Shown: positions 49,043 to 63,748 of the stretch, in pieces
Layout: every line of letters begins with the position of its first letter
How positions within the stretch are numbered: the first letter of the stretch is position 1
NCBI RefSeq assembly: GCF_000302535.1
Contig: NC_018708.1
Span: forward strand, 496,001 to 560,000
Reading direction: 5' to 3'
DNA from: Acidovorax sp. KKS102
GTDB lineage: Bacteria; Pseudomonadota; Gammaproteobacteria; Burkholderiales; Burkholderiaceae_C
DNA: 64,000 nucleotides
The notes under the pieces: generated by a model
Told to the model about the DNA's origin: nothing
Databases searched by the model: none
The model's input: only the letters and a program-made list of their open reading frames with translations
Position numbers and translations under genes: made by a program

Positions 49043-49465
49043 TCAGACACGCTGGCCCTGCGCGTTGATGACGACCTCGCCATCCTCCTTGGTGAAGGCA
49101 CCTTTTTGTAGCGCGGGCAGGATGTCCAGCACCTTCTCGGACGGGCGGCACAGCCGCGTGCCCAGGGGCGTGACCACGATGGGGCGGTTGATGAGGATGG
49201 GGTGCTGCAGCATCGCGTCGATGAGCTGGGCGTCGGTGACGCCCGGTGCGTCCAGCTGCAGCTCGGTGAAGACCGCTTCCTTGGTGCGCACAGCGTTGAT
49301 CACCGGCTCGCCGGTCGCCGCAATCAGCGCCACCAGTGTTGCGCGGTCGGGCGGGGTTTTCAGGTATTCAATGACCTCGGGCTCCACGCCGCTGTTGCGG
49401 ATCATGGCGAGGGTGTTGCGGGACGTGCCGCACTTCGGGTTGTGATAGATCGTGATGGTGGTCAT
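49043..49465 (-). CDS. arsC: arsenate reductase ArsC (glutaredoxin-coupled type)
   Basis: 140 residues. Catalytic C12 in H-N-P-K-C-G-T-S-R, with R60, R94 and R107 all at the same numbers as in plasmid R773 ArsC. It reduces arsenate to arsenite using glutathione/glutaredoxin. The ATG at 49465 overlaps the phnN stop (ATGA), so it is translationally coupled to a phosphonate gene. Unusually no arsR or arsB is present nearby. Confidence 0.93.
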   Translation of the reverse strand: MTTITIYHNPKCGTSRNTLAMIRNSGVEPEVIEYLKTPPDRATLVALIAATGEPVINAVRTKEAVFTELQLDAPGVTDAQLIDAMLQHPILINRPIVVTPLGTRLCRPSEKVLDILPALQKGAFTKEDGEVVINAQGQRV

Positions 49466-50076
49466 GGCGTGCTGGAAAGTAGGGGAGCGATGGGCGAAAG
49501 TTTGCCACTGCGCCGGGGCCAGCCTGGCAAATGCTCCAGCGCGTTCAGCAGCCGCTGGCCCGCATCGCCCAGCGCGCCGTCGTTGTGCACCTCCAGGCTG
49601 GCGGCTCCGGGGGGCGGGGTATAGGCCAGCGCGCGCTGCACCCGGGCCTCCACCTCTTCGCGCGTCTCGCGGCCGCGCGACAGCAGGCGCTCGCGTAGCA
49701 CTTGGGGGCTGGCGGTGATGTGTACGGCCACCAGGTCCGGGAACCGCGCCAGGGCCTCGGGCAGGTAGGCGCGCGAACCATTGAGCAGCACCCAGTGGCC
49801 CTGCACCAGCGGCGCCAGTTGCGCATGCCGCACGCCGTAATCCAGGCCGTTGGCATGCCAGTGCAGGGCAAAGGCGTGCTCGCTGCACAGCGCTGCAAAC
49901 GCTTGGGGCGAAACGCTGTCGTGCGCTTCACCTCCGGATGTCGCGGCACGGCTGATGGTGCGCTGCGCCCAGTGCACGGGGCAAGGCTGGGGCAGGTGCG
50001 TGCGTAGCCAGTCCAGAAGGCTGTCCTTGCCCGCTCCCGATGGGCCCATGCAGTAGACCAGCCGACCGGTGGTCAT
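49462..50076 (-). CDS. phnN: ribose 1,5-bisphosphate phosphokinase PhnN
   Basis: 204 residues. P-loop G-P-S-G-A-G-K-D (11-18) and guanylate-kinase-like fold with R-x2-S-R near 40-45. In C-P lyase pathways it turns ribose 1,5-bisphosphate into PRPP, recycling the ribosyl group. The ATG is inside the DUF1045 stop (ATGA), and its own stop overlaps arsC. Confidence 0.92.
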   Translation of the reverse strand: MTTGRLVYCMGPSGAGKDSLLDWLRTHLPQPCPVHWAQRTISRAATSGGEAHDSVSPQAFAALCSEHAFALHWHANGLDYGVRHAQLAPLVQGHWVLLNGSRAYLPEALARFPDLVAVHITASPQVLRERLLSRGRETREEVEARVQRALAYTPPPGAASLEVHNDGALGDAGQRLLNALEHLPGWPRRSGKLSPIAPLLSSTP

Positions 50077-50801
50077 GCGCCCATCTCCAGGTGGTCCAGC
50101 AACACAAAGTCCGCGCCCGGCGTGGGCTCTGCGAACAAGGCGAGGCTGTTGAATTTGAGGATGGGCAGGTCGGAGAAGAACTCCTGCGCGGCTTCGAACA
50201 CCAGCGACTGCGTGGGTGCGTCTACCTGCGCCAGGCTGCCGGTGAGCGACATGTGGAATCGGAACTCGTCCAGCACAAACGGGTAGCCCCATTGCTGCAG
50301 CAGCGCGTCTTGCCGGGCGGTGAGCACCGCTGCACGGCGCCGGGCCAGGTCGGCGTCGGACAGGGGCGCGGCCAAGGGCTGCAGCGCGGTCACGCAGGTG
50401 GCAGCGGTTTCCTGGATCTGCGCATTGGCGGGGTGCAACGCCGGGGGCACCAGCGCCAGAAAGTCGTCGATGCGCTGCACCTGCAGCGGCGGCAGCACAA
50501 AGGGTTGCAGCCCGCGCGCCACCTCCTGCACGGCCTGGTGCAGCGTGATCCAGTCGGTGCCGGGCGCCAGCGCAAACGGTGCCTTGAGCGTGGCGTGCCA
50601 GCCGTAGCGGCGGGGTGCTGCGGTCAGGCGGTGCAGCGTGTCGGCCGCCACGCCGTCGATGGCGAGCTGCTGCAGCGGCTGCAGCAACGCAGCGCAGCGT
50701 CCCAGCCAGTGGCTGCCGGCCAGCCAGCCCAGGCTGCCCGGGTTGGGTGCGAAATAGACCGCATAGCGGTGGTGGGTGGGTGGCATGTCAGGCGTGTTCA
50801 T
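50073..50801 (-). CDS. DUF1045 putative phosphonate metabolism protein (2H phosphoesterase fold)
   Basis: 242 residues. Two H-x-T/S motifs mark the 2H phosphoesterase fold: G-W-H-A-T-L-K-A-P-F near residue 65-75 and F-H-M-S-L-T-G near 185. The family is found almost only with phosphonate genes (TIGR03223-like); it may open the ribosyl cyclic phosphate, but this is not shown. The ATG at 50801 is preferred to a TTG three codons upstream. It overlaps the end of phnF by 14 bases. Confidence 0.85.
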   Translation of the reverse strand: MNTPDMPPTHHRYAVYFAPNPGSLGWLAGSHWLGRCAALLQPLQQLAIDGVAADTLHRLTAAPRRYGWHATLKAPFALAPGTDWITLHQAVQEVARGLQPFVLPPLQVQRIDDFLALVPPALHPANAQIQETAATCVTALQPLAAPLSDADLARRRAAVLTARQDALLQQWGYPFVLDEFRFHMSLTGSLAQVDAPTQSLVFEAAQEFFSDLPILKFNSLALFAEPTPGADFVLLDHLEMGA

Positions 50802-51570
50802 TGTGGTCAATCGTCAGTTTCACGCGGTCGCCCGCAAACCAGGCACGGGCCCATTCGATGGGTGTGCCTGCCAGGTCCACGTTCAGGCTCTCCACCTGCA
50901 GCACGGGGCGTGACGTGGGCTGGCGCAGCTGGGCGGCCACTTCGGGGCTGGGCAGCTCGGCGGTGATGCGGCTTTCGCGGCGCGTGTAGTCGGCCACGCC
51001 ATGGGCGGTGAAGCCTGCGGTGATGGAGCCTGTCTCGCGCACCACGGCCGCCAGGTTCTCGAAGCGCGGCAGGGGAAAGTAGCGCTCGCTGATGTGCAGG
51101 GGCTGGCCCTCGGCGTCGCCCCGCACGCGCAGCGCCAGCAGCGGGCTGCGCGCGGGCACCTGCAACGCCTTGGCCAGCGCCACCGTGGCGCGCGTGGTCT
51201 GGGCCTGCAGCACCACCAGGCTGCCGCGCAGTCCCGCCTGCGCCAGGCCCTGCTGATGGCGCGTTCGCTTGCCCAGCACCAGGTCCACCGCAAAGTCTTC
51301 CACATAGGTGCCGCTGCCCTGCGTGATGCGCACCAGCCCCTGGCTGCACAGGCTGGCGAGCGAGCGGCGGATGGTGTGCCGGTTCACGCCGAACTGCTCG
51401 GCCAGCGCGTGTTCCGAAGGCAGGCGCTGGCCGGGCGGGTAGACGCCGCTGCCGATGGCCTCGGCCAGCTCAGCGGCAATCCGCGTCCAGAAACTGTCGC
51501 GCGCAGGGCGCAGTGGGGGTGCATTTGGGGCCTGCAAAGGAGGCGGGAGAGAAGTGGTGCTGGCTGTCAT
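50788..51570 (-). CDS. phnF: GntR family phosphonate regulator PhnF
   Basis: 260 residues. N-terminal GntR winged helix (about 28-92; R-L-P-S-E-H-A-L-A-E-Q-F-G-V-N-R-H-T-I-R-R-S-L) and C-terminal UTRA effector domain (about 110-250) as in the HutC/PhnF subgroup. It should repress the phosphonate genes and be relieved by a pathway ligand. It is divergent from phnG, with a TTGTCTATACAA operator-like site between, and heads the leftward arm. Confidence 0.9.
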   Translation of the reverse strand: MTASTTSLPPPLQAPNAPPLRPARDSFWTRIAAELAEAIGSGVYPPGQRLPSEHALAEQFGVNRHTIRRSLASLCSQGLVRITQGSGTYVEDFAVDLVLGKRTRHQQGLAQAGLRGSLVVLQAQTTRATVALAKALQVPARSPLLALRVRGDAEGQPLHISERYFPLPRFENLAAVVRETGSITAGFTAHGVADYTRRESRITAELPSPEVAAQLRQPTSRPVLQVESLNVDLAGTPIEWARAWFAGDRVKLTIDHNEHA

Positions 51571-51614
51571 GAAACCTACATGCGCGCTCTTTAAGCTGGC
51601 GCCAGTTGTTCAAT

Positions 51615-51645: not shown

Positions 51646-52158
51646 ATGTTTCAAGCCTTTGACAACCCGGGGCCGGGCCGCCCCCTGGGCCGCGCGCAGT
51701 GGATGGCGCTGCTGGCCCGGGCGCCGCTGGGGCTGCTCGAATCTGCCTTGCATGAGCATGCCACGCGCCCCGCGCGCTGGCTGCGTGCGCCCGAGACCGG
51801 CTTGATGATGGTCCAGGGCCGCGCTGGCGGCACCGGTGAGCGCTTCAACCTGGGCGAGGTCACCGTCACCCGCTGCGCGCTGCGCGTGGCCGACGCATCG
51901 GACGCTGCCGAGGCCACTGTGGGCGTGGCCTACGTGCTGGGCCGATCGCACCGCCAGGTGCAACTCGCGGCCCTGGCCGATGCGCTGCTGCAAGACCCTG
52001 TTCAGCAACCGGTGCTGGACGCACAACTGCTCGAACCCATCCGCACCCACCTGCGCACCACCCAGGCCGAGCGCCAGGCGCGGGCCGCCAGCACCAAGGT
52101 GGACTTTTTCACCGTGGCGCGCGAGAGCGGTACCGACAACGACGAGGACACCGAATGA
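51646..52158 (+). CDS. phnG: C-P lyase core subunit PhnG
   Basis: 170 residues of the PhnG family; with PhnH, PhnI and PhnJ it forms the core complex, and with PhnI promotes ribosyl transfer of phosphonate from ATP. Family marks: R-A-Q-W-M-A-L-L-A-R near the start and F-N-L-G-E-V-T-V-T-R-C in the middle. A weak CAGGG ribosome site precedes the ATG. The stop overlaps phnH (ATGA). Confidence 0.93.
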   Translation: MFQAFDNPGPGRPLGRAQWMALLARAPLGLLESALHEHATRPARWLRAPETGLMMVQGRAGGTGERFNLGEVTVTRCALRVADASDAAEATVGVAYVLGRSHRQVQLAALADALLQDPVQQPVLDAQLLEPIRTHLRTTQAERQARAASTKVDFFTVARESGTDNDEDTE

Positions 52159-52805
52159 GCAAGAACCCAGTGACCCCTTTGGCATCTCTGGGTGCCGGAT
52201 TCTCGAACGAAGCCTTTGGTAGCCAGGCGGTGTTTCGGGCCGTGTTGCAGGCGCTGTCGCACCCCGGACGCACGGTGGCCGTGGAACACGACGCGCAGAC
52301 TCCCGCCGTGGGGCATGCCGCATCGGCGGCCGTGCTGCTGGCGCTGCTCGACAGTGACTGCACGCTGTGGCTTTCGCCGCGCCTGGCCGCCAGCGATGCG
52401 GGTGCGTGGCTGCGCTTTCACACGGGCTGCACCTTGGTGAGCGAGGCGGCTCAGGCTCGCTTTGTGTGGGTGGCGCAAGGCGACGTGGTACCGCCCCTCG
52501 ACAGTCTCGAACTGGGTACCGACATCTACCCCGACCAGTCCGCGACGTGCGTGGTCGATGTCCTGCGCGCCAGGGCCACCACGACAGATTCCGAAGGTGC
52601 TTGGTACTTGCGCGGCCCCGGCATCCAGGAGGTGGCGGCCTTGCAGTTGGGCGGCTTGCCCGACGACTTCGAGACCCAGTGGGCGGCCAACCAGGCAATG
52701 TTTCCGCGCGGGGTGGACTTGTTGCTGGCCACTGCAGACCACATCGTGGGTCTGCCACGCACCACGCGGGCAACGCGCGGTGCCACTGCTCTTCAGGAGG
52801 CTTGA
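52155..52805 (+). CDS. phnH: C-P lyase core subunit PhnH
   Basis: 216 residues. PhnH-family pattern: F-R-x-V-L-Q-A-L-S-H-P-G-R near 28-40, followed by a central L-L-x-L-L-D-S-D block and G-P-G-I-Q late. Structural subunit of the C-P lyase core complex. Starts inside the phnG stop and is followed by phnI after two bases. Confidence 0.93.
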   Translation: MSKNPVTPLASLGAGFSNEAFGSQAVFRAVLQALSHPGRTVAVEHDAQTPAVGHAASAAVLLALLDSDCTLWLSPRLAASDAGAWLRFHTGCTLVSEAAQARFVWVAQGDVVPPLDSLELGTDIYPDQSATCVVDVLRARATTTDSEGAWYLRGPGIQEVAALQLGGLPDDFETQWAANQAMFPRGVDLLLATADHIVGLPRTTRATRGATALQEA

Positions 52806-52807
52806 GT

Positions 52808-53911
52808 ATGTACGTAGCCGTCAAAGGCGGAGAAGCCGCCATTCTCAACAGCTACCAGCTGCTGGCGCGCCAGCGCCGGGGCGATGTAGCACAGCCCGAA
52901 CTCTCGGTGCCGCAGATCCGCCAGCAGCTCAAGCTGGCGGTGGACCGCGTCATGACCGAGGGTTCGGTCTACGACCCCGAACTCGCCGCGCTGGCCATCA
53001 AGCAAGCGGCGGGCGACCTGGTGGAAGCCATCTTTTTGCTGCGCGCCTACCGAGCCACGCTGCCGCGCCTGGGCACCACCTGCCCGCTGGACACCAGCCG
53101 CATGGCGCTGGACCGGCGCATCTCCGCCACCTTCAAGGACCTGCCCGGCGGGCAGGTGTTGGGCCCCACGTACGACTACACGCAGCGACTGCTGGACTTC
53201 AAGCTGCTGGCCGAAGGTACGGTGACGCCACCTGCCGCTGTGGCTGCTGCGGTGCCACCCGGCCCCACGCCGCGTGTGGTGGATCTGCTCAACCAGGAAG
53301 GCTTGATCGAAACCCGCCCCGTCCCCCCAGGCGACCCCGCGCCCACCGATCTGACCCGCGAGCCGCTGCGCTTCCCCGCCAACCGGGCCACGCGCCTGCA
53401 AAACCTGGCGCGCGGCGACGAGGGCTTCCTGCTTGCCATGGCGTACTCCACGCAGCGCGGCTACTCACACTCGCACCCGTTTGTGGGCGAGGTGCGCCTG
53501 GGCACGGTGGCGGTGGAGATCGTGCCGGAAGAGCTGGGCTTTGCCATCGACATCGGCGACATCGAGATCACTGAGTGCGAGATGGTGAACCAGTTTGCCG
53601 GCAGCAAGAGCCAGCCGCCGCAGTTCACGCGTGGCTACGGCCTGGCGTTCGGCCACAGCGAGCGCAAGGCCATGGCCATGAGCCTGGTGGACCGCGCCCT
53701 GCGTGCCGACGAGCTGGGCGAGCCCGTCGAGTCCCCCGCGCAGATGCAGGAGTTTGTGCTGGGCCACAGCGACAGCCTGGAGGCCTCGGGCTTCGTGCAG
53801 CACTTGAAGCTGCCGCACTACGTGGACTTTCAGTCCGAACTGGAGCTGGTGCGCAAGATGCGCGCCGCTGCCGCCCAACCCTCAACCCCTATCGATGAGG
53901 ACGCCGCATGA
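52808..53911 (+). CDS. phnI: C-P lyase core subunit PhnI
   Basis: 367 residues. PhnI start M-Y-V-A-V-K-G-G-E-x-A-I is exact to the family; the R-G-Y-x-H-S-H-P block near 220 and Y-G-L-x-F-G-x-S-E-R-K-A-M late in the protein also fit. PhnI is a nucleosidase that displaces adenine of ATP with phosphonate. The ATG follows an AGGAGGCTTGAGT run; the stop overlaps phnJ (ATGA). Confidence 0.94.
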   Translation: MYVAVKGGEAAILNSYQLLARQRRGDVAQPELSVPQIRQQLKLAVDRVMTEGSVYDPELAALAIKQAAGDLVEAIFLLRAYRATLPRLGTTCPLDTSRMALDRRISATFKDLPGGQVLGPTYDYTQRLLDFKLLAEGTVTPPAAVAAAVPPGPTPRVVDLLNQEGLIETRPVPPGDPAPTDLTREPLRFPANRATRLQNLARGDEGFLLAMAYSTQRGYSHSHPFVGEVRLGTVAVEIVPEELGFAIDIGDIEITECEMVNQFAGSKSQPPQFTRGYGLAFGHSERKAMAMSLVDRALRADELGEPVESPAQMQEFVLGHSDSLEASGFVQHLKLPHYVDFQSELELVRKMRAAAAQPSTPIDEDAA

Positions 53912-54837
53912 ACGCGCCCATGGAATCCGCTGTGATGGGCCTGCCCGCCGACGCCGCGCCGGTGGACGGCCACTTCAACTTTGCCTACCTGGACGAGCGC
54001 ACCAAGCGCATGATCCGCCGCGCCATCCTCAAGGCCGTGGCCATCCCCGGCTACCAGGTGCCTTTTGGCTCGCGCGAGATGCCGCTGCCCTATGGCTGGG
54101 GCACGGGCGGCATCCAGGTCACCGCGTCCATCATCGGCCCGCAGGACTGCCTCAAGGTCATCGACCAGGGTTCGGACGACACGGTCAACGCGGTCAACAT
54201 CCGCCGCTTCTTCGAGCGCACCACAGCCGTGGCCACCACCACCCGCACGCGGGAGGCCACGCTGATCCAGACGCGCCACCGCATCCCCGAGACGCCGCTG
54301 GCCGAAGGCCAGGTCATCGTCTACCAGGTGCCCGTGCCCGAGCCCATGCAGCGCCTGGAGCCGCGCGAGACCGAAACGCGCACCCTGCACGGCCTGGCCG
54401 AGTACGGGCTCATGCACGTCAAGCTCTACGAAGACATTGCGCGCTACGGCCGTATCGCCACCACGTACGACTACCCGGTGCTGGTCAACGGCCGGTACGT
54501 GATGGCGCCATCGCCCATCCCCAAGTTCGACAACCCCAAGATGCACATGAACCCCGCGCTGCAGCTGTTTGGCGCGGGCCGCGAGAAACGCATCTACGCC
54601 GTGCCGCCCTACACGCCGGTGGAGAGTCTGGGGTTTGAGGACCACCCCTTTGAAGTGCAGCGCTGGGACGCCGCGTGCGCGCTGTGCGGCGCCACCGACA
54701 GCTTTCTGGACGAGGTCATCACCGACGACCAGGGTGGCCGCATGCATGTGTGTTCCGACTCGGACTACTGCCAGGAGCGCCAGGCAGAGCGGGTGCAGCA
54801 GGCCGAATCGGCGGTGGAACAAGGCGGCGCCGCATGA
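53908..54837 (+). CDS. phnJ: carbon-phosphorus lyase PhnJ (radical SAM)
   Basis: 309 residues. The catalytic subunit that breaks the C-P bond of ribosyl-phosphonate, giving an alkane and a cyclic phosphate. The cluster cysteines are C257, C260, C282 and C288 (C-x2-C-x21-C-x5-C), matching the E. coli arrangement C241/C244/C266/C272 spaced identically. Family start G-x-F-N-F-A-Y-L-D-E-R-T-K-R-M-I-R-R is present. The stop overlaps the next gene's ATG. Confidence 0.96.
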   Translation: MNAPMESAVMGLPADAAPVDGHFNFAYLDERTKRMIRRAILKAVAIPGYQVPFGSREMPLPYGWGTGGIQVTASIIGPQDCLKVIDQGSDDTVNAVNIRRFFERTTAVATTTRTREATLIQTRHRIPETPLAEGQVIVYQVPVPEPMQRLEPRETETRTLHGLAEYGLMHVKLYEDIARYGRIATTYDYPVLVNGRYVMAPSPIPKFDNPKMHMNPALQLFGAGREKRIYAVPPYTPVESLGFEDHPFEVQRWDAACALCGATDSFLDEVITDDQGGRMHVCSDSDYCQERQAERVQQAESAVEQGGAA

Positions 54838-55295
54838 GCCCCGTGCACATTCGCGAAGCCCGGCAGGCCGACCTGGAGAGCGTGCTGGCGCTGTATGCCG
54901 CCATTGAAGACAGCTCCGCCGACGTGCTGACGCTGGAAGAGGCACAGGCCGTGTGGGCGCAGTTTGCGCGCTACCCCAGCTACCGCCTGTGGGTGGCCTG
55001 CGACCCCGCGCAGCACGGCGCGGTGGTGGGCACCTATGCGCTGCTCGTCATGCACAACCTGGCGCACCGGGGCGCGCCCTCGGCCATCGTCGAAGACGTG
55101 GTGGTGGCACAGGACCAGCAGGGCCGTGGCATTGGCCGCCAGATGATGGCCCACGCCGTGCAGCAGGCGCGTGAGGCGGGCTGCTACAAGCTTGCGCTCT
55201 CGTCCAACGCCCGCCGCAAGGACGCGCATGCCTTCTATGAATCCCTGGGCTTTGCGCAGCATGGCCTGAGCTTTGTTGTCGAGACCCTCACATGA
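54834..55295 (+). CDS. GNAT acetyltransferase within the phn operon (PhnO-like role possible)
   Basis: 153 residues. GNAT fold with the acetyl-CoA loop Q-D-Q-Q-G-R-G-I-G-R (about 93-102) and the C-terminal A-F-Y-E-S-L-G-F. E. coli PhnO, which acetylates aminoalkylphosphonates, is in the same superfamily and also lies in a phn operon, but at a different position. Here the gene is inserted between phnJ and phnK with ATGA overlaps on both sides. Phosphonate N-acetylation is the natural guess. Confidence 0.78.
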   Translation: MSPVHIREARQADLESVLALYAAIEDSSADVLTLEEAQAVWAQFARYPSYRLWVACDPAQHGAVVGTYALLVMHNLAHRGAPSAIVEDVVVAQDQQGRGIGRQMMAHAVQQAREAGCYKLALSSNARRKDAHAFYESLGFAQHGLSFVVETLT

Positions 55296-56080
55296 ATCAC
55301 CCCGAACCTTCTGCGCCGCTGCTGAGCGTGCGGAACGTCAGCAAGCGCTATGGCGACCGCGTGGCGCTGCAAGGCGCATCCTTTGACCTGTGGCCCGGCG
55401 AGGTGCTGGCCGTGGTGGGCGAGTCGGGCTCCGGCAAGTCCACGCTGCTCAACGCCATTGCCGCGCGCAGCGCCCCGGACGAAGGCACGGTGCAGTTCCG
55501 ACAGCGCAGTGGCGAGCTGCAGGACATCTATGCCATGACCGAAGCGCAGCAGCGTCTGCTGGCCCGCACCGACTGGGGCTTTGTGCACCAGAACGCTGCG
55601 GACGGACTGCGCATGGATGTGTCCGCCGGTGCCAATGTGGGCGAGCGCCTCATGGGCCTGGGCGAGCGCCACTACGGCCGCCTGCGCGCCACGGCCATGG
55701 AGTGGCTGCAGCGCGTGGAGATCGACGGGGCGCGCATCGACGACGCACCGCGCACGTTTTCGGGCGGCATGCGCCAGCGCCTGCAGATTGCGCGCAACCT
55801 CGTCACGCAGCCCCGCCTGGTGTTCATGGATGAGCCCACCTCGGGCCTCGATGTGTCGGTGCAAGCGCGCCTGCTGGACCTGCTGCGCCAGCTCACGCGG
55901 CAGATGCAGCTGGCGGCCATTGTGGTCACGCACGACCTGGCCGTGGCGCGCCTGCTGGCGCACCGCATGGTGGTCATGCAGCGCGGCCGTGTGGTCGAGG
56001 CGGGCCTGACCGACCAGGTGCTCGACGACCCGCAACACCCCTACACCCAGCTCCTCGTTTCTTCGGTACTGCAGCCATGA
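55292..56080 (+). CDS. phnK: C-P lyase ATP-binding protein PhnK
   Basis: 262 residues of ABC ATPase type. Walker A G-E-S-G-S-G-K-S-T (43-51), signature F-S-G-G-M-R-Q-R (about 153-160) and Walker B with D-E-P-T-S-G. PhnK docks on the core complex rather than on a transporter. Both ends overlap neighbouring genes by ATGA. Confidence 0.93.
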   Translation: MNHPEPSAPLLSVRNVSKRYGDRVALQGASFDLWPGEVLAVVGESGSGKSTLLNAIAARSAPDEGTVQFRQRSGELQDIYAMTEAQQRLLARTDWGFVHQNAADGLRMDVSAGANVGERLMGLGERHYGRLRATAMEWLQRVEIDGARIDDAPRTFSGGMRQRLQIARNLVTQPRLVFMDEPTSGLDVSVQARLLDLLRQLTRQMQLAAIVVTHDLAVARLLAHRMVVMQRGRVVEAGLTDQVLDDPQHPYTQLLVSSVLQP

Positions 56081-56811
56081 ACCAGCCTCCTTCCATTGCG
56101 CCCATCCTCCAGATGCAAGGGGTGGCCAAGCGCTTCACCCTGCACCACCAGAACGGCATCGAACTGCCCGTGCTCGCCCAGGTGGACCTGGCCGTGCAGC
56201 CGGGCGAGTGCGTGGTGCTTGACGGCCCCTCGGGCATGGGCAAGAGCACGCTGCTCAAGATGATCTACGCCAACTACCGGGCCAATGCCGGCCGCATCAC
56301 CGTGCGGTCGGCCGATGGCACCGTGGTGGACGTGACGCAGGCCACGCCGCGTGCGCTGGTGCAGCTGCGCCGCGACACCGTGGGCTATGTGAGCCAGTTC
56401 CTGCGGGTCATCCCGCGTGTGTCGGCCCTGGATGTGGTGGCCGAGCCGCTGGCCGAAGACGCGGGCGACGACCCTGCGGGCATCGAGGCCGCGCGCCAGG
56501 AAGCGCGCCGGTGGCTGACCCGCCTGCGCATTCCCGAGCGGCTGTGGCACCTGCCGCCCGCCACGTTCTCCGGTGGCGAGCAGCAGCGCATCAACATCGC
56601 CCGCAACATGATCAAGCCCAAGCCGCTGTTGTTGCTGGACGAGCCGACTGCATCGCTCGACGCGGCCAACACCGAGACCGTGATTGCCATGATCCGCGAA
56701 GCCGTGGCGCGCGGCGCGGCCCTGGTGGGCATTTTTCACGACGCGCAGGTGGGTGCCGCTGTGGCCACGCGCCGCGTGAATGTGGGTGACTTCCGGGGGG
56801 TATCGGCATGA
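56077..56811 (+). CDS. phnL: C-P lyase ATP-binding protein PhnL
   Basis: 244 residues of ABC ATPase type. Walker A G-P-S-G-M-G-K-S-T near 50-58, signature F-S-G-G-E-Q-Q-R and D-E-P-T-A-S-L-D. It acts with PhnK on the C-P lyase complex. ATG overlaps phnK; its stop overlaps phnM. Confidence 0.93.
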   Translation: MNQPPSIAPILQMQGVAKRFTLHHQNGIELPVLAQVDLAVQPGECVVLDGPSGMGKSTLLKMIYANYRANAGRITVRSADGTVVDVTQATPRALVQLRRDTVGYVSQFLRVIPRVSALDVVAEPLAEDAGDDPAGIEAARQEARRWLTRLRIPERLWHLPPATFSGGEQQRINIARNMIKPKPLLLLDEPTASLDAANTETVIAMIREAVARGAALVGIFHDAQVGAAVATRRVNVGDFRGVSA

Positions 56812-57962
56812 CCGCGACCGTGTTCAAAAACGCCCGCATGGTGCTGCCGGGCGAAGTGGTGTTGGGCAGCCTGCAGGTGGATGCTGGGCGCATCGCGTCG
56901 GTGGACGGCGGTGGCACATCGGCGTTGCAGGGCATTGACCTGGGCGGCGACTACCTGCTTCCGGGCCTGGTGGAAATTCACACCGACAACTTCGAGCGCC
57001 ACCTCATGCCGCGCCCCAAGGTGCAATGGGCCGAGATGCCCGCGCTGCTGGCGCACGACGCCGAGATTGCGGCCGCAGGCATCACCACGGTTCTGGACGC
57101 GCTGGGCGTGGGTGAGGCCGATGTGGACAGCTTGCGCGGCAGCGCCTGGAATCGCGTGCTCGACACCATCGACACCTGCACCGAGCGCAACCTGCTGAGG
57201 GCCGACCACCACCTGCATGTGCGCTGCGAGCTGCCCGCACCCAATACCATCGACCTGTTCGAGCCGTTTCACGGGCACCCGCGCCTGTCGTTGATCTCAC
57301 TGATGGACCACACCCCAGGTCAGCGCCAGTGGGAGAACATCGAGCAGGCGCGCACCTACTACACCGGCAAGAAGGGCTGGAGCGCCGAGAAATTCGAGCG
57401 CCAGGTGGCGCACGCTGCCACGCTGCAGGCGCAGTACGCCGAGCCACACCGTGCGTACTTTGTGGATTACTGCCGCACGCACGGCATCTCGCTGGCCAGC
57501 CACGACGACACCACGGTGGCCCATGTGGAGCAGGCCCATGCCGAAGGGGCCGCGATGTCGGAGTTCCCGACCACACTGGCCGCAGCCCAGGCCGCGCACG
57601 AATGTGGCTTGCTCACCGTGATGGGCGGGCCCAACGTGGTGCGCGGTGGTTCGCATTCGGGCAACGTGGCGGCGGCCGACCTGGCGCGCAGGGGTCTCTT
57701 GGACATCCTCTCGTCCGACTATGTGCCCGGCAGTCTGCTGAGCGCGGTGATGCGGCTGGTGCAGGACGACATCCTGCCCTTGCCACAGGCTGTGGCCACC
57801 GTCACCCACAACCCTGCCAAGGCGGCGGGCATGCTGGACCGGGGCGCGCTGGCGCCCGGCCTGCGCGCCGACCTGGTGCAGGTGCACATGGCCGAGCTGC
57901 CCGATGGCGGTCGCCAGGCCGTGGTGCGTGGGGTGTGGCGTGAAGGGCAGCGGGTGCTGTAG
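56808..57962 (+). CDS. phnM: PhnM, alpha-D-ribose 1-methylphosphonate 5-triphosphate diphosphatase
   Basis: 384 residues of amidohydrolase fold. Metal-binding regions: V-E-I-H-T-D-N-F-E-R-H near residue 56-66, D-H-T-P-G-Q-R-Q-W near 165 and S-H-D-D-T-T near 230. It removes pyrophosphate to give ribose-phosphonate monophosphate, the PhnJ substrate. The ATG overlaps the phnL stop. A Pho box and a stem-loop separate it from phnC. Confidence 0.94.
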   Translation: MTATVFKNARMVLPGEVVLGSLQVDAGRIASVDGGGTSALQGIDLGGDYLLPGLVEIHTDNFERHLMPRPKVQWAEMPALLAHDAEIAAAGITTVLDALGVGEADVDSLRGSAWNRVLDTIDTCTERNLLRADHHLHVRCELPAPNTIDLFEPFHGHPRLSLISLMDHTPGQRQWENIEQARTYYTGKKGWSAEKFERQVAHAATLQAQYAEPHRAYFVDYCRTHGISLASHDDTTVAHVEQAHAEGAAMSEFPTTLAAAQAAHECGLLTVMGGPNVVRGGSHSGNVAAADLARRGLLDILSSDYVPGSLLSAVMRLVQDDILPLPQAVATVTHNPAKAAGMLDRGALAPGLRADLVQVHMAELPDGGRQAVVRGVWREGQRVL

Positions 57963-58177: not shown

Positions 58178-59038
58178 ATGACTGCCGCACTGCACATCCA
58201 CCAACTGAACAAGCATTTCGCCAACGGCAAACACGCCCTGCGCGACATCAATCTCACCGTACAGCGCGGCGAGATGGTGGCGCTGATTGGTGCCTCGGGC
58301 TCGGGAAAGTCCACCCTGCTGCGTCATGTGGCGGGCCTGGTGGTGGCCGATGCGTCCAGCGATTCGCTGATCGAGGTGGATGGCCGCTGCGTGCAGCAGG
58401 CGGGGCGCATTCACAGTGACATCCGCAAGGTGCGTTCGCAGGTGGGCTTTGTGTTTCAGCAGTTCAACCTGGTGGACCGCTTGCCCGTGCTGATGAACGT
58501 GCTGGTGGGCCTGCTGCACCGCACGCCCTGGTGGCGCGGCTGGCTGCGCATGTTCAAGCCGCAGGAGCGCGCGCTGGCGCTCGAAGCGTTGCACCGCGTG
58601 GGCATTGCCGAGTGCCATGCGCAGCGCGCATCCACCCTGTCAGGCGGGCAACAGCAGCGGGCGGCCATTGCCCGCACGCTGGTGCAGGGCGCCAAGGTGG
58701 TGCTGGCCGACGAACCCATCGCCTCGCTCGACCCCGAATCCTCCCGCAAGGTCATGGACATCCTGGCACGCATCAACCGCGAAGACCGTTGCACCGTCAT
58801 CGTGTCGTTGCACCAAGTGGATGTGGCCATCAAGTATTGCCCGCGCGTGGTGGCCTTGCACCATGGACAGGTGGTGTACGACGGCCCGTCAGCCGCACTC
58901 ACGCCCGCATTGCTGCGGGGCCTGTATGGCGTGCAGGCCGACGAAATCCTCTCGGATGCATCCAGCGCCCACCCTGCACCTGCGCATGCCCCCATGCCCG
59001 CGCCGCAGTGGTCGCCCGCCATGGTGCAGGCCGCTTGA
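58178..59038 (+). CDS. phnC: phosphonate ABC transporter ATP-binding protein PhnC
   Basis: 286 residues. Walker [10 protein letters not shown] (38-46), signature L-S-G-G-Q-Q-Q-R near 155 and D-E-P-I-A-S-L-D. ATPase of the phosphonate importer. The C-terminal 30 residues are Ala/Pro-rich beyond the usual end. AAGGAGG precedes the ATG. Confidence 0.93.
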
Positions 59039-59083
59039 TCGGTGATTCGGTTCCCTTCATTTCCTTTCTCTGGAGCTTTCAAC

Positions 59084-60031
59084 ATGTTCAAGAAACTGTG
59101 TGCTGCCCTGACACTCGGGCTGGGATTGACCACGGGCGCGCTGGCCCAGGACATCAACTTCGGCATGATCTCGACCGAGGCCACGCAAAACCTCAAGGCC
59201 GACTGGCAGCCGCTGCTGGACGACATGGCCAAGCAGACGGGCCTGAAGATCAACGCCTTCTTTGCGTCCGACTACGCGGGCCTGATCGAAGCCATGCGCT
59301 TCAACAAGATGCAGGTGGCCTGGCTGGGCAACAAGTCGGCCATGGAAGCCGTGGACCGCGCCAACGGCGAAGTCTTTGCACAAATGGTGAATGCCGACGG
59401 CACCCAGGGCTACTACTCGCACCTCATCGTGCACAAGGACAGCCCCCTGGCCAGCCTGGACGACGTGCTCAAGAACGGCAAGGCGCTGAGCTTTGGCAAT
59501 GGCGACCCCAACTCCACCTCGGGCTTCCTGGTGCCCGGCTACTACGCGTTTGCGCAGAACAAGATCGACGCGAAGACGCACTTCAAGATCACGCGCAGCG
59601 CCAACCACGAGACCAACGCGCTGGCCGTGGCCAACAAGCAGGTGGATGTGGCCACCAACAACAGCGAAAACCTGGAAAAGATCAAGGAACGCCAGCCCGA
59701 GAAGTTCAAGGACATCAAGATCGTCTGGACCTCGCCCCTGATTCCGCTGGACCCGCTGGTGATGCGCAAGGACCTGCCCGAGGCCACCAAGACCAAGATC
59801 CGCAACTTCTTCTACAACTACGCCAAGACCGATGCGCGTGAGAAGGAGATCGTGATGAAGATCTCCAAGCTGTCGGGCTTCAAGCCCTCGACCAACGCCC
59901 AGCTCACGCCCATCCGTCAGCTCGACCTGTTCGGCAAGCGCAACAAGATCGAGGCCGACGCCACCTTGGCCGATGCCGACAAGAAGACCCGCCTGGCCGA
60001 GATCGACCAGCAGCTGGCGTCGCTCAAGTAA
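59084..60031 (+). CDS. phnD: phosphonate ABC transporter substrate-binding protein PhnD
   Basis: 315 residues with a signal peptide (M-F-K-K-L-C start; cleavage after A-L-A near residue 21). Periplasmic phosphonate receptor; N-S-T-S-G and S-N-H-E-T-N-A-L segments in the middle match PhnD ligand loops. Start at 59084 is chosen by the signal peptide. It lies 45 bases after phnC. Confidence 0.93.
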
Positions 60032-60065: not shown

Positions 60066-60872
60066 ATGTCCTCAACATTGAATCCATCTCTGGCCACGCT
60101 GGCCAGCACCACGTCGCCCAAGCGCAGCCTGGCCAGGTATCTGTCGTGGGGCATCCTGCTGGTGTTGCTGGCCGCGTCCTGGCAAGGTGCCGACATGCGC
60201 CCGCTGGCCCTGTGGAACGACTCGGGCAACATGGTCAGCTACGCAGCGGAGTTCTTTCCTCCCAATTTTGCGCAGTGGCAAATCTATGTGCAGGAGATGC
60301 TGGTCACGCTGCAGATCGCGCTGTGGGGCACGGCACTCGCCGTGATCACCGCCGTGCCGCTGGCGCTGCTGGCCTCGTCCAACATCGTGCCCTGGTGGGT
60401 GTACCAGCCGGTGCGCCGCGTACTCGACGCGTGCCGCGCCATCAACGAAATGGTGTTTGCCATGCTGTTCGTGGTGGCCGTGGGCCTGGGGCCGTTTGCG
60501 GGCGTGCTGGCGCTGTGGATCCACACCTCGGGCACACTGGCCAAGCTGTTTTCTGAAGCCGTGGAGGCGATTGACCCGCAGCCCGTGGAGGGCATCCGCT
60601 CCACCGGCGCGAGCGCGCTGCACGAGATCATCTACGGCGTGATCCCGCAGGTGATGCCGCTGTGGATCTCGTACACGCTGTACCGCTTTGAAGCCAACGT
60701 GCGTTCGGCCTCGGTCGTGGGCATGGTCGGCGCAGGCGGCATTGGCGTGGTGCTGTGGGAAATCATTCGCGGCTTTCAGTACGCCGAGACCTGCGCGGTG
60801 ATGCTCATCATCGTGGTGACGGTGAGCGTGATTGACCTGGTCTCTGCGCGTATTCGTAAAGCGTTGGTCTGA
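60066..60872 (+). CDS. phnE: phosphonate ABC transporter permease PhnE
   Basis: 268 residues with about six membrane helices. The permease EAA loop region is near [22 protein letters not shown]. Start at 60066 follows phnD by 34 bases. Completes the phnCDE importer. Confidence 0.92.
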
Positions 60873-60884
60873 CAAGGAAAGACA

Positions 60885-61445
60885 ATGGCATTGAGCCTGG
60901 AAGACATTGCCCACCTGCTCGCCACCCGGGGCGTGAATCAATATGGCCGCGAGGCGGTCAGCCAGCTGGAGCATGCCTTGCAGTGCGCGCAGTGGGCCGA
61001 AAAGTCGGGCGAGACCCCCGCGACGGTCGCAGCGGCTTTGCTGCACGACCTGGGCCACCTGCTGGCACCCGGGGGCGACACGGCCGAGCAGGACGACCTG
61101 CACCAGTACATGTCCCTCCCGTTCCTGCGGGGCCTGCTGCCCGACGCGGTGCTGGAGCCCATCCGCCTGCATGTGGATGCCAAGCGCTACCTGTGCACCA
61201 TGGAGCCGGGGTACTGGGAGACGCTGTCACCCGCATCGCAGCACAGCCTGGTGCTGCAGGGCGGGCCCTTCACGCCCAAAGAGGCGATGCAGTTTGCGGC
61301 GCAGCCCTTTGCACAGGAGGCCATCCGCCTGCGCCGGTATGACGATCATGCCAAGGTGCCGGGGCTCGCCACCCAGCCGCTTCGCTACTACATGGCCGGG
61401 TTGGAGCGGCTGGCCCTCGTTCCCGAGGCGGCCTTGGTGCATTGA
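60885..61445 (+). CDS. PhnZ-like HD-domain phosphonate oxygenase
   Basis: 186 residues of the phosphonate-associated HD family (TIGR03276-like). Ligand candidates H30, H54, D55, H73, H96 and D153 line up, by offsets of about 4 to 8, with the di-iron ligands I recall for PhnZ (H34, H58, D59, H80, H104, D161); Y20 and E23 likewise match the lid residues Y24 and E27. PhnZ oxidatively cleaves 2-amino-1-hydroxyethylphosphonate. No PhnY-type dioxygenase is present in the window. It starts 12 bases after phnE, so it is part of that operon. An HD phosphohydrolase role cannot be excluded. Confidence 0.8.
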   Translation: MALSLEDIAHLLATRGVNQYGREAVSQLEHALQCAQWAEKSGETPATVAAALLHDLGHLLAPGGDTAEQDDLHQYMSLPFLRGLLPDAVLEPIRLHVDAKRYLCTMEPGYWETLSPASQHSLVLQGGPFTPKEAMQFAAQPFAQEAIRLRRYDDHAKVPGLATQPLRYYMAGLERLALVPEAALVH

Positions 61446-61505: not shown

Positions 61506-62522
61506 TCAGGTCGGCTTGTTCGCAGGACGGCATTGCGCTGGCTCCAGCCCCAGGTGCTGCTGCATCGCACGGATCATGGTATCCACAGAGCCGAAACCGC
61601 TGCGCGCTGCGATCTTCTCCTGAGGCCAGTCGGTCTGGCGCAGCAGCGCCGCAGCGTGCTGCGCACGCACCTGGGCCACGAAGCGGGCAGGCGTGCAATG
61701 GGCCTGCGCCGCAAACGCACGAGCGAAGTTGCGGGGGCTCATGTGTGCACGCTGGGCCAAGGCATCTACCGACAGATCCTGGGTCAGATGCCCCTGAATC
61801 CAGGCCATCAGCTCGCGCATGCGGACCGATGCATCGGTCTGCGCCAGCAGTGCCGGGCTCAGCTGCGGTGTGGTGTCTGTGCGCAGCGTGAACACCGCCA
61901 GATCCCGGGCGATCTGCATGGCCACGGCGCGGCCCAGGTCTTCTTCGATCAGGGCCAGGGCCATGTCCAGCCCTGTGGTTACACCAGCCGACGTCCAGAG
62001 CGCGCCGTCGCGCACAAAAATTCGGTCACGCTGTACCTGTGTGCCAGGGCATAACTGGGCGAGCAGATCGCAGGCATTGATGTGGGTCGTCGCCTTGCAC
62101 CCTTCCAGCAGCCCTGCAGCGGCCAGCGCAAAGGCGCCCGTGCAGACGCTGGCCACCCGCCGTGACCGCTGCGCAGCCTGGGCCAGCCACGCCCCCGCGC
62201 CGTCCTCGTAGATCGCGCGGCGCAGGGCGTCCTCCTCACCACCCGCCACGATCAGTGTGTCGATCGAACCGCCCATGGCCTGCATGGGGACGGTGTCGGC
62301 CACCGCAAATCCCGCACTGGTGCGCACGGCGCCTCCACGTGGTGAAGCCATGTGAACCCGGTAGGCCCCCGGCACAGCGAGGGTGGCCTTGCTGAATGCA
62401 CTGGCGGGTGCCGCAATGTCGATGGCCTCCACCCCTTCAAAGGCCAGCAGGACCACTTCGCGGCAAGGGGCGTGGGCAGCGGCCTTGGCAGGAACTGCGG
62501 CGGATTTGGCATGGCGGGGCAT
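61506..62522 (-). CDS. GlxA family AraC-type transcriptional regulator (DJ-1 plus AraC domains)
   Basis: 338 residues. N-terminal DJ-1/PfpI-like domain (about 20-190) with S-V-C-T-G-A at the nucleophile elbow, used here as a ligand-sensing domain. C-terminal AraC helix-turn-helix pair (about 235-330; M-S-P-R-N-F-A-R-A-F and S-G-F-G-S-V-D-T-M). Ligand unknown. Divergent from a secreted DJ-1-domain protein. Confidence 0.88.
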   Translation of the reverse strand: MPRHAKSAAVPAKAAAHAPCREVVLLAFEGVEAIDIAAPASAFSKATLAVPGAYRVHMASPRGGAVRTSAGFAVADTVPMQAMGGSIDTLIVAGGEEDALRRAIYEDGAGAWLAQAAQRSRRVASVCTGAFALAAAGLLEGCKATTHINACDLLAQLCPGTQVQRDRIFVRDGALWTSAGVTTGLDMALALIEEDLGRAVAMQIARDLAVFTLRTDTTPQLSPALLAQTDASVRMRELMAWIQGHLTQDLSVDALAQRAHMSPRNFARAFAAQAHCTPARFVAQVRAQHAAALLRQTDWPQEKIAARSGFGSVDTMIRAMQQHLGLEPAQCRPANKPT

Positions 62523-62587
62523 CGTGATGCAACCTAAGCTGGAGCCGGTGAACGAGGTGAATAGTGGATGTCAACAGGAGGCGGGGC

Positions 62588-63748
62588 GTGGCGATATTGT
62601 GGCGTTGGATGGAGGTGGTGATCATGGGGCTCGTAGCAATGGCAGCGTGGACTGCAGGTGCGACCTCGGGGTTCGCGCAGCCTATGGAGGCGCACCAGGG
62701 TGCCCGGGCCGCTGCGCCTTTCGCGCTGGCCCTGCGCCCCCCGCCGGCCGGGGGCACCGCCCCCGTGATTGCCGTGCTGGCATTGAACGAGGGGACGGAA
62801 ACCACAGACTTCCTGGTTCCCCATGCCGTGCTGCAGCTGGCCCAGGTGGGCGTGGTGGAGGCCGTGGCCTCACGCGCAGGCGCGGTCACCTTGATGCCCG
62901 CGCTGCAAGTGGAGGTGCCACGCAGCTTCGCGGCCTTTGATTCCGTGTATCCGCAGGGGGCAGACATCGTGGTGGTGCCTGCTCTGCACACCGAAGACGA
63001 CCCGGCGGTACTGGCGTGGCTACAGGCCCAGGCGGCCAAAGGGGCTGTGGTGGTCGGTATCTGCAGCGGGGCCAGGGTGTTGGGCCGGGCGGGGTTGCTG
63101 GAGGGGCGCCGCTTTGCGGGGCACTGGTATGACCGCAGCACTTTGCTGCGGCGCCACGCGGGCGCGGTGCATGTACCCGGGCAGCGCTATGTGGCCGATG
63201 GGCCGGTGGTGACCACCACGGGGGTGTCCGCGTCTTTGCCCGTGTCGCTGGCTTTGGTCGAGACGCTGGCGGGTGCCGAGCGGGCGCGTGCTGTTGCGAC
63301 CGCACTGGGCATGCCATCCTGGGGCCCTGCACACCGCAGCGAACGGTTCGGTCTGTCGCTTGCGCATGTGGGGACCCTCTCGGTCAACACCCTGCTGTTC
63401 TGGCGGCATGAGCGCATCGACATCCCCGTGGTGGATGGGGTGGACGATGTGGCGCTGGCCCTGGCGGCAGATGCGTGGTCGCGCACCTACCGCTCTCGCG
63501 CTGAGGCGGTGAACGCCCTCGCCAGCCCCGTGCACCTGCGCAGCGGCTTGTTGCTGCGGGCTGCACCGCCTGATGCGTCGGCGACCACGGTCTTGCTGGA
63601 CAGGGACATGCAGCCCGCCTGTGTGCTGGACCACAGCCTGCAGATGATCGGTCAGCGTTACGGGGCGGCTACGCGCCAGTGGGTCGCTACACAACTGGAA
63701 TACGAAGACCCCGAGGTGCGCTGTGGGGCAGCGGGCCCGTCTCCGTGA
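62588..63748 (+). CDS. exported DJ-1/PfpI-domain protein
   Basis: 386 residues from a GTG at 62588 that has AGGAGG six bases upstream; it gives an N-terminal hydrophobic signal (about 9-30, ending G-F-A-Q). Other starts at 62564 and 62624 are possible. The DJ-1 domain (about 45-215) carries the elbow V-G-I-C-S-G-A. The C-terminal 170 residues have no family I recognise but include a second alpha/beta module (S-L-A-H-V-G-T-L-S-V-N-T-L). It is divergent from a GlxA-type regulator with its own DJ-1 domain, its likely controller. Function unknown. Confidence 0.7.
   Translation: MAILWRWMEVVIMGLVAMAAWTAGATSGFAQPMEAHQGARAAAPFALALRPPPAGGTAPVIAVLALNEGTETTDFLVPHAVLQLAQVGVVEAVASRAGAVTLMPALQVEVPRSFAAFDSVYPQGADIVVVPALHTEDDPAVLAWLQAQAAKGAVVVGICSGARVLGRAGLLEGRRFAGHWYDRSTLLRRHAGAVHVPGQRYVADGPVVTTTGVSASLPVSLALVETLAGAERARAVATALGMPSWGPAHRSERFGLSLAHVGTLSVNTLLFWRHERIDIPVVDGVDDVALALAADAWSRTYRSRAEAVNALASPVHLRSGLLLRAAPPDASATTVLLDRDMQPACVLDHSLQMIGQRYGAATRQWVATQLEYEDPEVRCGAAGPSP

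Follow-up and report, generated by a model that had tools for sequence, protein, structure and literature searches.

A PhnZ-type HD-domain oxygenase gene accompanies the phosphonate importer genes phnCDE at the end of a C-P lyase locus in Acidovorax sp. KKS102

Results

A complete C-P lyase locus ends with the oxygenase gene

The 64,000-nucleotide stretch of Acidovorax sp. KKS102 DNA analyzed here (contig NC_018708.1, positions 496,001 to 560,000; hereafter the window) carries a complete C-P lyase locus comprising phnGHIJKLM and phnCDE. The genes phnG, phnH, phnK, phnL, phnM, phnC, phnD, phnE, phnF, and phnN were recognized by NCBIfam models, and phnI and phnJ by Pfam models. The minus strand carries phnN, a DUF1045 gene, and phnF, and the plus strand reads phnG, H, I, J, a GNAT acetyltransferase gene, K, L, M, C, D, E and, in final position, the gene of an HD-domain oxygenase (HD). 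In window coordinates, the features are as follows:

49462..50292, minus strand: phnN (TIGR02322, 182.7 bits, residues 76-253)
50073..50810, minus strand: DUF1045/TIGR03223 phosphonate-locus protein (PF06299, 170.9 bits; TIGR03223, 231 bits, just below the cut-off of 248.95)
50788..51570, minus strand: phnF, divergent GntR-type regulator (TIGR02325, 199.7 bits)
51646..52158, plus strand: phnG (TIGR03293, 153.6 bits)
52155..52805, plus strand: phnH (TIGR03292, 163 bits)
52802..53911, plus strand: phnI (PF05861, 541.2 bits)
53908..54837, plus strand: phnJ, radical SAM C-P lyase (PF06007, 499.5 bits)
54834..55295, plus strand: GNAT acetyltransferase, resembling PhnO in position and weakly in sequence (Pfam Acetyltransf_1)
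55292..56080, plus strand: phnK (TIGR02323, 387.4 bits)
56077..56811, plus strand: phnL (TIGR02324, 317.9 bits)
56808..57962, plus strand: phnM (NF011984, 552.2 bits; TIGR02318, 462.4 bits)
58178..59038, plus strand: phnC, importer ATPase (TIGR02315, 303 bits, cut-off 266.1)
59042..60031, plus strand: phnD, phosphonate-binding protein (TIGR03431, 341.3 bits, cut-off 261.1)
60072..60872, plus strand: phnE, importer permease (TIGR01097, 302.9 bits, cut-off 216.7)
60874..60879, plus strand: AAGGAA, Shine-Dalgarno-like site seen in the sequence after the phnE stop (60870-60872) and ahead of the HD start
60885..61445, plus strand: Phn-HD (PhnZ-type) oxygenase gene, ATG to TGA, 186 amino acids (TIGR03276, PDB relatives, residue map, and model)

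Only 12 nt, which contain the AAGGAA motif, separate the phnE stop codon from the HD start codon, and a scan for terminators and promoters 3′ of HD found none. Because the PhnN domain begins at residue 76 of its open reading frame, with about 75 additional residues in front of it, translation probably starts within the listed frame. The best NCBIfam match of the GNAT protein is aminoalkylphosphonate N-acetyltransferase (55.1 bits, under the cut-off of 142); GNAT genes also occur in the C-P lyase loci L089, L075 (right after HD), and L145 on a Nostoc plasmid. By eye, a Pho-box-like sequence with one perfect and one poor half (CTGTCAT-GAAA-CCTACAT, 51564-51581) was noticed in the phnF-phnG gap, overlapping the phnF start. 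Beside the operon lie two divergent genes with DJ-1/PfpI domains (61506-62522, minus strand, and 62564-63748, plus strand), the former encoding an AraC-type regulator related to FtrA/GbdR.

The HD protein has the iron ligands, lid, and fold of PhnZ and TmpB

The product of the terminal gene is a full-length member of the Phn-HD/PhnZ type, scoring 224.7 bits (cut-off 214.6, residues 4-175) on the NCBIfam model TIGR03276, "phosphonate degradation HD-domain oxygenase." This match and the final position of HD in a complete C-P lyase locus confirm the preliminary description of this DNA, which had reported a PhnZ-like oxygenase ending a C-P lyase operon; its further point, that one locus combines a radical SAM C-P lyase with a PhnZ-type oxygenase, also stands on the NCBIfam and Pfam matches. 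The gene is present in a single copy in the 5.197-Mb single-contig genome, and the protein is 94% identical to its counterparts in Acidovorax benzenivorans and an Acidovorax metagenome-assembled genome (MAG). A sequence search of the PDB returned TmpB (6npa, 1.9e-26) and PhnZ (4mlm/4n71, about 3e-21) as the only clear relatives. The protein fell below the cut-off of 300 bits of both relevant equivalog models, with 141.5 bits for TmpB (NF049941) and 140.9 bits for hydroxymethylphosphonate dioxygenase (NF052439).

What the ligand set and the YxxE loop do in PhnZ and TmpB has been described (PMC8177086). Aligned to the PDB sequence of PhnZ, from which the PhnZ numbering was taken, the HD protein has the complete H...HD...H...H...D ligand pattern, with H30, H54, D55, H73, H96, and D153 corresponding to PhnZ H34, H58, D59, H80, H104, and D161. 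The lid pair Y20/E23 of the YxxE loop corresponds to Y24/E27, the phosphonate-side residues K100, S118, Q125, and R150 to K108, S126, Q133, and R158, and H58 to H62; ligands, lid pair, and phosphonate-side residues align with TmpB in the same way. In an alignment of 55 sequences, all six ligands were invariant and Y20 and E23 were at least 90% conserved. The match of metal ligands and lid to PhnZ proposed earlier thus holds in the PDB alignment, the residue map, and the 55 sequences, and careful alignment revealed no missing di-iron ligand. The five invariant histidines that mark TIGR03276 proteins (PMC11203657) are H30, H54, H58, H73, and H96, all unchanged in these sequences.

Structure modeling, which the preliminary description had suggested, gave an AlphaFold model of mean pLDDT 93 whose fold is closest to those of TmpB and substrate-bound PhnZ (Z 26.0 and 25.4, respectively), with 174 residues superimposed at an rmsd of 1.8 to 1.9 Å (1.8 Å for PhnZ). 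Myo-inositol oxygenase followed at Z 11.3 and the remaining HD proteins at 9.4 or less, and Foldseek likewise placed TmpB and PhnZ on top by a wide margin. The protein is 33% identical to PhnZ, the (R)-1-hydroxy-2-aminoethylphosphonate (R-HAEP) dioxygenase of uncultured bacterium HF130_AEPn_1, and 33% identical to TmpB of Leisingera caerulea. Moreover, PhnZ works with PhnY*, which the window locus lacks, as it lacks TmpA. On its sequence and model, the protein is very probably a PhnZ/TmpB-type di-iron C-P oxygenase.

HD joins C-P lyase genes in several phyla and accompanies phnCDE in betaproteobacteria

Among 150 sampled genomes of the same family, 14 carried phnJ, 47 carried Phn-HD (matches over 100 bits), and 10 carried both (Fisher p 0.0015); in 7 of these 10, the two genes lay within 6.2 kb of each other. 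Such proximity greatly exceeds what chance would give, with the caveat that the genomes are related. In a phylum-wide sample of 398 genomes, phnJ was found over cut-off in 83, Phn-HD in 38, and both in 18, with the two together in only 3 of the 18; linkage is therefore a minority arrangement, commoner in the family of Acidovorax sp. KKS102. A C-P lyase context was seen for 17 of the 80 named Phn-HD loci, a share that chance pairing cannot explain. The linked loci include those of Leptolyngbya PCC 7375 and of MAGs of Actinomycetota, Alphaproteobacteria, and Gammaproteobacteria, and the pairing thus recurs in several bacterial phyla, cyanobacteria among them.

RefSeq already uses the name "phosphonate degradation HD-domain oxygenase" inside two C-P lyase loci. 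Plasmid 4 of Variovorax sp. SRS16 has the gene order of the window but lacks a GNAT gene in the phnJ-phnK interval. Unlike the window, the conjugative plasmid pNsp_b of Nostoc sp. ATCC 53789 has HD within the core, immediately 5′ of phnJ, in an operon with GNAT and FosA-like genes. Between phnI and HD, this plasmid carries a gene for a FosA-like thiol transferase and a second gene resembling phnM (L145:9342-10969).

In betaproteobacterial C-P lyase loci, HD is the final gene of a phnC-D-E-HD cassette. Layouts ending in this way are the window type, L044/L045/L075, L140, L141, and L142/L143, and the position of the cassette relative to phnG-M varies: behind, before, or on the opposite strand. 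All exceptions (L084, L089, L103, L109, L097, and Nostoc) fall outside the betaproteobacterial group.

Most betaproteobacterial C-P lyase-linked HD proteins form a clade beside those of phnWAY and HpnW-phnX clusters

In a 93-row tree, whose deep placements are uncertain owing to several long branches, the betaproteobacterial C-P lyase-linked HD proteins, all but that of L075, formed one clade (support 96/89). Its sister group (support 97/87) comprised HD proteins encoded in phnWAY and HpnW-phnX clusters. These clusters are likewise without PhnY*, and the neighbors named in them by NCBIfam are phosphonoacetaldehyde dehydrogenase, PhnA, PhnR, PhnW, PhnX, HpnW, and Phn_aa_oxid. The "C-P lyase" label requires about 6 changes on the tree, of which well-supported branches impose at least 2; repeated gain or loss of the pairing is thus probable.

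Four positions distinguish the C-P lyase clade from its sister, namely, G21 (S in the sister), A24 (P), A117 (D), and Y152 (W). G21 and A24 lie in or beside the lid loop, and Y152 adjoins the ligand D153; these differences suggest that the substrate of the C-P lyase-linked clade may differ. One member of this clade (L139:8718-9260) belongs to a genome in which phnJ was not detected, possibly as a relic or a transplanted gene, and is followed by an open reading frame that by eye resembles a PhoX-type phosphatase.

Linkage to phnCDE points to probable import of an already hydroxylated substrate

A PhyH profile built for this analysis detected no PhyH-type open reading frame in the 64-kb window; neither PhnY* nor TmpA is encoded there, the local absence of PhnY having been noted before. 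HD accordingly lacks the adjacent α-ketoglutarate/Fe(II) hydroxylase (PhyH or TauD) of a two-gene PhnY*-PhnZ pathway. Across the 80 loci, a PhyH gene was absent beside HD except in L097 and L110. L097, from an Actinomycetota MAG, has C-P lyase, HD, and a PhnY*-like gene together, so the lack of PhnY is usual and not universal; a full oxidative pair is possible in such loci, and most are without one. The PhyH gene of L097 is methylphosphonate-hydroxylase-like (284.2 bits, cut-off 500), and the region (L097:2200-13600) reads in one row phnHIJKLM, this PhyH gene, the HD oxygenase gene, a GntR-like gene, and phnD-C-E-E.

The best hint on the source of the substrate is that HD tracks phnCDE, which favors import through PhnCDE. 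The preliminary description had reasoned that the substrate would come from the environment or from another enzyme; that was fair, and the coupling to phnCDE sharpens it toward import. We thus consider it probable that HD is a PhnZ/TmpB-type oxygenase serving a side branch that would free phosphate from an imported α-hydroxyphosphonate, R-HAEP being the leading candidate. From sequence and model, the substrate is very likely an α-hydroxyphosphonate, and its import, as opposed to synthesis inside the cell, is likely. PhnCDE would bring the compound in from the environment already hydroxylated, making a PhnY* step unneeded. The subsequent steps can be modeled on the mechanism of PhnZ (PMC8177086, PMC10574752): at a mixed-valent di-iron site, the substrate would push Y20 off one iron, O2 would take the freed site, and the C-P bond would be cleaved into phosphate and a carboxylate (glycine if the substrate is R-HAEP). 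The C-P lyase would deal in parallel with unhydroxylated phosphonates.

As to other sources and routes, phosphonate biosynthesis by the organism itself was rejected: none of the five PEP-mutase superfamily genes in the genome reaches the PEP mutase cut-off, the top-scoring model being methylisocitrate lyase for four of them (scores under its cut-off) and isocitrate lyase for the fifth. A search of the genome for PhnW and PhnX found neither over cut-off, leaving C-P lyase and HD as the recognized C-P breakers among those searched.

R-HAEP is favored because E23 is kept and because PhnZ homologues without PhnY* have been interpreted in this way in the literature: those of phnWX/phnWAY clusters have been proposed to handle R-HAEP entering with AEP (PMC8154272), and HAEP has been predicted for the Achromobacter TIGR03276 protein (PMC11203657). 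Even so, R-HAEP in particular has about an even chance of being the substrate. Since the TmpB and hydroxymethylphosphonate scores are alike and low, sequence does not choose the substrate and leaves R-HAEP, hydroxymethylphosphonate, and methylated forms as candidates.

The same chemistry and import with hydroxymethylphosphonate, N-methylated HAEP, or a 1-hydroxyalkylphosphonate as the main substrate is the strongest alternative, though an unlikely one. It would fit the equal model scores, the clade-specific lid-loop changes, and the HD gene of L097, which comes after the methylphosphonate-hydroxylase-like gene in a C-P lyase operon. However, the L097 protein is distant from that of the window in the tree and scores 188.7 bits on the hydroxymethylphosphonate model against 140.9, and the lid glutamate of PhnZ equivalent to the retained E23 contacts the substrate amino group (PMC8177086).

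A split pathway, in which a hydroxylase encoded elsewhere in the genome supplies the oxygenase, appears improbable. A genome-wide search with PF05721 (PhyH) and PF02668 (TauD), answering the earlier call for a PhnY homologue, did find one gene of each family. The sole PhyH gene (C1:2948446), whose product may, going by its sequence, be such a hydroxylase and so count against import, lies among hut genes, and the protein matches none of the NCBIfam PhnY models. The sole TauD gene (C1:2228227) has its highest score on the taurine dioxygenase model (285.3 bits, cut-off 313) and adjoins a gene for an ABC-type substrate-binding protein. Furthermore, PhyH was undetected in 4 of the 17 genomes or bins behind the C-P lyase-linked HD loci, namely, three MAGs and Acidovorax sp. 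SRB_14 (L038/G540), which has the same operon as the window.

That HD serves the C-P lyase pathway itself, acting on one of its intermediates or by-products, is very improbable: the repeated occurrence of HD beside C-P lyase genes in several phyla and its place next to phnJ on the Nostoc plasmid would suit it, but betaproteobacterial HD goes with phnCDE and not with phnG-M, its near relatives lie beside phnWAY and phnX with no C-P lyase nearby, and to our knowledge no C-P lyase intermediate is an α-hydroxyphosphonate. Least credible is an ordinary HD-domain phosphohydrolase, a candidate that we rejected because, although Pfam sees just a generic HD domain (24.8 bits), the five-histidine di-iron set, the YxxE lid, and a fold far nearer PhnZ and TmpB than hydrolases speak against it.

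Discussion

The enzyme family, its occurrence without PhnY*, and its RefSeq name are already known; it is the genomic context that is under-described. PhnY*-less PhnZ homologues have been published for phnWX/phnWAY clusters (PMC8154272) and for phosphonatase clusters (PMC11203657), the latter being the sole result of a full-text literature search for TIGR03276/PhnHD. The searchable literature, with subscription papers out of reach, yielded no account of the phnC-D-E-HD cassette inside C-P lyase loci, of its own clade, or of its recurrence in other phyla.

The Achromobacter PhnHD proteins (L048/L051), encoded beside phosphonatase operons, are of the same NCBIfam family, also lack PhnY*, and are predicted to act on HAEP (PMC11203657). 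They differ from the HD protein studied here in belonging to the sister clade and in having HpnW and phnX, not C-P lyase genes, as neighbors. The phnWX/phnWAY clusters that contain a phnZ homologue (Table 1 of PMC8154272) are alike in adding a PhnY*-free PhnZ-type side branch to another C-P-breaking route; in contrast, their partner route is hydrolytic, and the survey did not cover C-P lyase clusters.

Speculatively, the phnCDE-linked clade might have its own imported α-hydroxyphosphonate, one unusable by or harmful to C-P lyase, so that the importer cassette would carry a dedicated O2-dependent C-P-cleaving enzyme. PhnO, present in some operons for 1-aminophosphonates, offers a parallel for such an arrangement.

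Environmental surveys, of which PMC9381506 is an example, have taken PhnZ-type genes as a marker of 2-AEP breakdown via PhnY*-PhnZ. Given the lack of PhnY* here and in most related loci, counts of PhnZ-type genes may instead mark the use of ready-hydroxylated phosphonates. The phnC-D-E-HD cassette provides a concrete guess at how the substrate would enter the cell, namely, by import. How often PbfA occurs has prompted the question of how common R-HAEP is (PMC8154272), and the cassette suggests that α-hydroxyphosphonates may be common enough in the environment to merit a dedicated gene.
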